Assembly: GCA_026418175.1 (NCBI GenBank)
Contig: JAOABX010000005.1
Location: 1-64,000 of the forward strand
Reading direction: 5' to 3'
DNA: 64,000 bases
DNA from: Flavobacteriales bacterium
GTDB lineage: Bacteria > Bacteroidota > Bacteroidia > CAIKAF01
The notes under the pieces are model-generated. The model had not been told where the DNA came from, did not search any database, and worked only from the letters and a program-made list of their open reading frames with translations. The position numbers were made by a program, and so were the translations under genes. This document shows positions 49,435 through 49,493 of this stretch, one piece after another; within the stretch, counting starts at the first letter, position 1, and each line of letters opens with the position of its first letter.

Positions 49435-49493
49435 AAAAAACATACTGCCGATGGGTGCACTATCGGCTGGAAATGATAAAAATTACTGCACCC
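49435..49493 (-). promoter_or_regulatory. Putative transcription attenuator between polycysteine ORF and metY
   Basis: Reading toward metY: GGGTGCA (49493-49487), a 19-nt linker, GCCGAT (49467-49462), AG, TGCACCC (49459-49453), ATCGGC (49452-49447), AGTATG, then TTTTTT (49440-49435). GCCGAT/ATCGGC forms a hairpin just before the T run, extended by CAT/ATG pairs. GGGTGCA is complementary to the loop TGCACCC, so pairing there would compete with, or form a pseudoknot on, the terminator-like hairpin. This is typical antiterminator/terminator geometry. Pairings were found by eye; no energies were computed. Confidence 0.5.

Follow-up and report, generated by a model that had tools for sequence, protein, structure and literature searches.

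In the attenuator of the E. coli trp operon the leader RNA can form three alternative helices (1:2, 2:3 and 3:4); a stalled ribosome gives the antiterminator, whereas a ribosome at the stop codon, or no translation at all, gives the terminator. To our knowledge, leader-peptide attenuation is little documented in the Bacteroidota. For cysteine, papers citing Canestrari (2020) describe mycobacterial polycysteine short ORFs that end in Cys codons and lie upstream of sulfur amino-acid genes, and for the cys/cbs leader peptides of Actinobacteria, where terminators were not found, a Rho-dependent output has been proposed (PMC1262725). Here we describe, in a 64,000-nt stretch of DNA (the window), the 5′ leader of a metY-osmC-metX-hom operon, which we read, with a probability of roughly 0.6, as a two-input RNA switch that would turn metY on only if SAM and Cys-tRNA are both low.

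The genes downstream of this leader are as follows.

48053-49393, minus strand: metY, encoding O-acetylhomoserine aminocarboxypropyltransferase (homocysteine synthase), on our reading the gene under control (TIGR01326, 690 bits, cut-off 495)
47580-48032, minus strand: OsmC-family gene, probable operon member, 20 nt after metY (PF02566, 73.9 bits)
46519-47580, minus strand: metX-like homoserine O-acetyltransferase gene, probable operon member (best NCBIfam match TIGR01392, 338 bits, under the cut-off)
45261-46529, minus strand: homoserine dehydrogenase gene, probable operon member (NF004976, 329.7 bits, cut-off 205)

The OsmC-family gene between metY and metX is an odd neighbour for methionine genes. 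A search of the window genome for serine acetyltransferase (CysE) gave a best score of 22.7 bits against a cut-off of 210.65, and the best match to the CysK profile scored higher as a cystathionine beta-synthase (TIGR01137, 489.7 bits, slightly under the cut-off of 510); a cystathionine gamma-synthase/lyase-type enzyme is also present. Because CysE is absent and these two activities appear to be available, the homocysteine that MetY produces probably serves as the precursor of cysteine as well as of methionine.

The leader itself comprises the following elements, listed in the order of transcription.

49621-49758, minus strand: SAM riboswitch aptamer (RF00162, S box), 55.3 bits against a gathering score of 44.4, full model 1-108
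49497-49610, minus strand: leader ORF of 37 codons, MKVITNIPNLNFTQQVKYSAFRISPFYSCCCCMCCWM then stop, with an ATG AAA start 10 nt after the aptamer
49506-49526, minus strand: Cys codons TGT TGT TGC TGC (ATG) TGT TGC, the proposed sensor; a stall at any of the six gives helix 2:3 in folding
49513-49522, minus strand: region 1, GTTGCTGCAT, paired with 49491-49482 (helix 1:2) in the minimum-energy fold without a ribosome
49499-49497, minus strand: leader stop codon TAA, read directly from the sequence
49482-49493, minus strand: region 2, GGGTGCAGTAAT, of which 49493-49487 (GGGTGCA) pairs with region 3 and 49491-49482 with region 1 in folding; identical in the sister species described below
49447-49467, minus strand: hairpin 3:4, GCCGATAGTGCACCCATCGGC, candidate terminator with arms GCCGAT (49467-49462) and ATCGGC (49452-49447), -6.7 kcal/mol
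49453-49459, minus strand: region 3, TGCACCC, the loop of this hairpin; the 2:3 helix has -11.4 kcal/mol, long loop included
49435-49440, minus strand: T-run TTTTTT, 6 nt (AGTATG) past the hairpin

The initial annotation had placed GGGTGCA 3 nt past the leader stop, complementary to TGCACCC in the loop of a GCCGAT/ATCGGC hairpin followed by TTTTTT, and had remarked on a gap between stem and T-run; each of these motifs was found on the minus strand where it had been placed, and the gap is the 6 nt of AGTATG. The SAM riboswitch is the only one in the window genome (G000), with its 3′ end 10 nt before the leader start and the ORF start about 150 nt downstream of the aptamer start. Only one other genome with this version of the leader was found, that of a species of the same genus whose MetY is 95% identical (G001, the sister species). 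An ORF start at an upstream ATG inside the aptamer, giving a 75-aa ORF, was rejected on finding the frame broken in the sister species; because the indel within the ORF is 3 nt there and the stretch from aptamer to ATG differs by 4 nt, the start at 49610 fits and the upstream ATG does not. A CTTCACC/GGTGAA hairpin within the leader ORF, considered as a terminator for the riboswitch, was also set aside, being absent from the sister species. No protein family was found for the leader peptides (NCBIfam with four peptides, Pfam with the window peptide), and a plasmid search using the leader gave no match. Like a trp-type leader, the predicted ORF is short and carries codons of what would be the regulating amino acid (six Cys codons), and its frame is kept in the sister species.

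The leader was folded with a ribosome placed codon by codon, its 3′ edge set at 12 nt and varied from +9 to +15, and sequences were given a three-state switch score for a hairpin that is on without a ribosome and with the ribosome at the stop codon, and off with it at the Cys codons. Without a ribosome the folding probability of hairpin 3:4 was 0.95, because region 2 is occupied in a helix with the Cys codons (49522-49513 with 49491-49482). When the ribosomal A site was placed on any of the six Cys codons, with the 12-nt edge, helix 2:3 took over (probability 0.88-0.99) and 3:4 fell to 0.09 or less; over 3′ edges of +9 to +15 the probability of 2:3 at the Cys codons was 0.82-0.99. Placing the A site on the stop codon brought 3:4 back to 0.98. 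The window leader scored 0.94 as a switch, a value reached by 0/2000 dinucleotide shuffles of the post-ORF stretch, of which three exceeded 0.5. By thermodynamic folding, then, this RNA has the trp-type set of mutually exclusive helices 1:2, 2:3 and 3:4 switched by ribosome position.

These folds reproduced the ribosome logic of the initial annotation, in which a ribosome at the stop codon allows the hairpin and one stalled on Cys codons leaves GGGTGCA to pair with TGCACCC. Its attenuator reading was nevertheless incomplete, as it missed both the third helix, 1:2, which keeps the hairpin on if the leader is untranslated, and the SAM riboswitch. The check that it had proposed, folding of 49394-49620, was unremarkable against shuffles when done ribosome-free (z -0.96 and -1.50), and the switch appeared with the ribosome placed; the signal resides in alternative structures, not in stability. 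The 1:2 complementarity of the window leader alone was likewise not significant against shuffles (z -0.84). A pseudoknot, raised as an alternative, is disfavoured by the predicted geometry, since TGCACCC directly abuts ATCGGC, which would give an H-type pseudoknot a connecting loop of zero length.

We infer leader translation, stalling at the Cys codons, termination at 3:4 and gating by SAM, and on the two-input reading they would be linked as follows. The SAM riboswitch, judging by its position and conservation, would control translation of the leader ORF: in the SAM-bound state P1 would lie over the leader initiation region, 10 nt before the ATG, and the leader would stay untranslated. Folding predicts that in the untranslated leader the Cys codons pair with region 2 in helix 1:2, so that 3:4 would be free to form. 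Translation with ample Cys-tRNA would take the ribosome to the stop codon, where it would cover region 2 and let 3:4 form again, whereas with scarce Cys-tRNA a ribosome stalled on the Cys codons would cover region 1 and free region 2 for helix 2:3, which excludes 3:4. Hairpin 3:4 would then bring about premature transcription termination, and metY would be expressed only with low SAM and low charged tRNA-Cys.

Comparison with the sister species gave a similar picture. From the Cys codons through region 2 the two leaders are identical at 45/45 positions, and over the hairpin at 23/23, whereas the remainder of the ORF has 49/86 identical nt and the spacer separating the conserved blocks 7/11. 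In the U-run region 6/12 positions are kept; the sister species still has TTTTT, with a gap of 5 nt and altered flanking bases. On this alignment the pairing segments appear to be selectively conserved in an otherwise diverged leader. Covariation in the stems is silent, because this version is carried by just two species, whose stems do not differ by a single substitution. The same switch was obtained by folding in the sister species, with a weaker 3:4 (0.79 without a ribosome, about 0.71 at the stop codon). Two other genomes of the genus (G002 and G003) have no metY of this type at the threshold used and no SAM riboswitch, and because both metY and leader are missing from them, the two have been lost or gained within the genus.

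The combination of elements is not restricted to this genus. SAM riboswitches were located by cmscan in a sample of 142 metY leaders from Bacteroidota: 72 leaders combine a SAM riboswitch with a Cys-cluster ORF, 29 have a riboswitch only, 17 a Cys ORF only and 24 neither, so that 72 of the 101 SAM-carrying metY leaders have a Cys-cluster ORF. In 57/72 the ORF starts 6-10 nt past the aptamer. Cys accounts for 31% of the last 20 codons and for the final codon in 47/72, with TGT and TGC both in use. The second codon of the leader ORFs is mostly AAA, and a Shine-Dalgarno-like sequence is missing in nearly all; the initiation region therefore coincides with the 3′ strand of P1. The 27 SAM leaders of non-metY genes (mainly methionine synthase and cystathionine gamma-synthase-like) contain no Cys ORFs, and only one of them has a short ORF (at least 8 codons) 5-10 nt past the aptamer, a position at which the SAM-only metY leaders mostly retain a short ORF. 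In a group of mostly Algoriphagus-like leaders (L032, L035, L037, L040, L041, L044, L127, L130 and L133) the SAM riboswitch is followed by a Cys-less short ORF 8-9 nt behind. Because the spacing of the ORF is specific to metY and is retained in SAM-only metY leaders, we infer that the direct target of the riboswitch is translation of the leader ORF. A scan of 119 genomes for a polyCys-stop pattern was too unspecific for assigning other genes.

The same survey bears on whether riboswitch and Cys attenuator might be independent regulators in series, the former acting by its own means and not via leader translation. The 17 Cys-only and 29 SAM-only metY leaders, and three in which aptamer and Cys ORF are 62-358 nt apart, are what such an arrangement would produce, and since the modules occur singly or far apart in some metY leaders they can work apart. 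An ORF 6-10 nt past the aptamer, however, leaves no room for a separate expression platform, and this spacing is not seen in SAM leaders of other genes; we therefore regard independence of the two modules as unlikely. In several metY leaders without a detected SAM riboswitch (L084, L142, L148, L150 and L162) the Cys peptides are Met-rich too, for example MHMTMCSMHQMMCCCCMHGCMC. Met codons number 3.1 per last 20 codons in SAM-less Cys leaders versus 1.7 in those with a riboswitch (p 0.015), and in the SAM-less leaders they may sense methionine in place of the riboswitch.

Among SAM-metY loci of a class-wide sample, a CysE match was missing in 20/31 with a Cys leader versus 1/9 without (Fisher p 0.007, descent ignored). 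Extending the two-input reading to the phylum, we would put at a little under even odds a hierarchical gate in which a SAM-I riboswitch without an expression platform of its own controls translation of a Cys-sensing leader ('SAM low AND Cys-tRNA low'), and in which lineages regaining direct cysteine synthesis drop the Cys codons and keep the riboswitch-controlled ORF. Copper-response Cys-rich leader ORFs occur in other bacteria, and by analogy the peptide could sense metal or redox stress in place of cysteine supply. The ORF precedes a homocysteine synthase gene, however, not metal genes, and a terminal run of tandem Cys codons in peptides that are not conserved elsewhere fits codon hunger better than metal binding, which makes a metal or redox sensor the least probable of the readings considered.

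The particular switch of the window leader is not shared by the family at large. A generic switch test was passed by 3/70 leaders (the window, the sister species and L159) versus 0.7% of shuffles, and the 3:4 logic is thus not general in the family; L159, an unrelated sequence from another family, shows the same three-state behaviour with a score of 0.87. Complementarity of type 1:2 is modestly enriched family-wide (combined p 3e-7, the sequences not being independent), and pairing of region 2 to downstream sequence showed no enrichment over shuffles across the family. Absence of the switch from most members would be expected if the pairing in the window were a coincidence around a genuine Cys leader, but the shuffles, the selective invariance in the sister species and the robustness to the ribosome footprint speak against chance, and we hold a coincidence to be very unlikely.

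The output of the switch is less clear-cut than its logic. Hairpin 3:4 has a 6-bp stem of -6.7 to -8.2 kcal/mol with a T-run that comes 6 nt late; lengthening the stem up to the T-run gave an unstable structure, and a terminator scan did not return the 3:4 site. In 464 kb of this genome with 40 convergent gene ends, the strongest hairpins at those ends carried a gap-0 T-run in 7 cases versus 0.3 expected, and T-run gaps of 4-7 nt were not enriched. With its weak stem and late T-run, hairpin 3:4 is atypical for terminators of this genome, and its putative role as a transcription terminator is the weakest point of the proposed switch. Across the family, a hairpin followed by a T-run within 7 nt was found in 28/72 leaders versus 11.3, canonical terminators with a gap of 2 nt or less were barely enriched (12/72 versus 7.9), and the stretches after the ORF fold better than shuffles (mean z -1.36). 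Because most clades show no clear terminator switch, the output there may differ, for instance by the use of Rho. In another clade (L096, L097, L102, L161, L170, L175 and L179) the Cys ORF is followed by a hairpin with four compensated pairs and then by a conserved TACGC, with no U-run attached. Compensatory changes noted by eye in an ACACGT/ACGTGT hairpin of one clade did not survive alignment.

A Rho-dependent output is one alternative: the Cys leader would sense cysteine and, as in the tna operon, a ribosome stalled at the Cys codons beside the stop would keep Rho from a pyrimidine-rich entry site, with the hairpins playing a secondary part. The scarcity of terminators with short gaps agrees with it, the 30 nt past the stop are pyrimidine-rich and G-poor family-wide (longest pyrimidine tract on average 8.1 nt versus 4.3 in shuffles), the Cys codons adjoin the stop in most members, and the same idea was put forward for the terminator-less actinobacterial Cys leaders (PMC1262725). 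Yet the stretch past the stop in the window, GGGTGCAG, has no unbroken pyrimidine tract, the hairpin alternatives account exactly for the conserved segments in the clade of the window, and hairpins with a T-run within 7 nt are enriched in the family, which together leave Rho an improbable explanation, though one to be reckoned with. Hymenobacter-like leaders (L069, L094, L105, L154, L156 and L157) have long pyrimidine-only tracts, for example CCCCCCTCCCCTCCTTTC, soon past the stop of the Cys ORF, which resemble Rho entry sites.

The hairpins might also act on metY translation or on RNA stability and not on transcription, in line with the description of mycobacterial polycysteine ORFs as translation attenuators (PMC13236596) and with the near-identity of the two species just before the metY ATG. 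Directly upstream of this ATG, 42/43 nt (window positions 49393-49435) are the same in the sister species, above expectation for a plain 5′ UTR, and no pairing or promoter accounting for these 43 nt was established. The metY ATG lies 53 nt past the end of hairpin 3:4, however, and the metY start showed no conserved pairing with it, so that we think an effect on translation or stability distinctly less likely than one on transcription.

If the two-input reading is correct, the leader would be a natural AND gate in which a single RNA combines a riboswitch for a small molecule with a sensor of tRNA charging, and there would be a reason for two sensors on metY, which in the absence of serine acetyltransferase stands at the branch point to methionine and cysteine. 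The layout of SAM riboswitch and Cys leader is widespread (Pedobacter, Pontibacter, Hymenobacter and others), so that the proposal is testable in culturable species. A search of the open literature, with subscription papers lying mostly outside its scope, returned no SAM riboswitch joined to a Cys-sensing leader.

Set beside the trp attenuator, the window leader has the same four regions and three alternative helices set by ribosome position; it differs in having Cys for Trp, a weak hairpin with a late T-run, and a SAM riboswitch preceding the leader ORF. With the mycobacterial and actinobacterial Cys ORFs, as described in the papers cited above, it shares a short ORF ending in Cys codons before sulfur amino-acid genes and a proposed or demonstrated response to cysteine. 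The mycobacterial hallmark, a tandem run of Cys codons ahead of genes for sulfur amino acids, is present here. The same papers describe no riboswitch in front of the ORF, report no terminator hairpins and invoke translation attenuation or Rho; the mycobacterial polycysteine ORFs are there described as leaderless, whereas the ORF in the window lies about 150 nt past the aptamer start and not at the 5′ end. The uORFC-8-2 motif upstream of cysS in Rhodobacterales (PMC8632094) is likewise a predicted Cys-tRNA transcription attenuator with Cys codons in a short ORF, alternative stems and a U-run, but it has two tandem Cys codons only, precedes a different gene, lacks a riboswitch and comes from another phylum. 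The ppe2 B12 riboswitch of M. tuberculosis (PMC11260477) acts first on the translation of a short upstream ORF, as we propose for the SAM riboswitch here; that ORF is no amino-acid sensor and is coupled by termination-reinitiation. The aptamer in the window is a member of SAM-I (S box, RF00162) by score, and on the proposed reading the usual SAM-I expression platform, its own terminator or the RBS of the main gene, would be replaced by the leader ORF.
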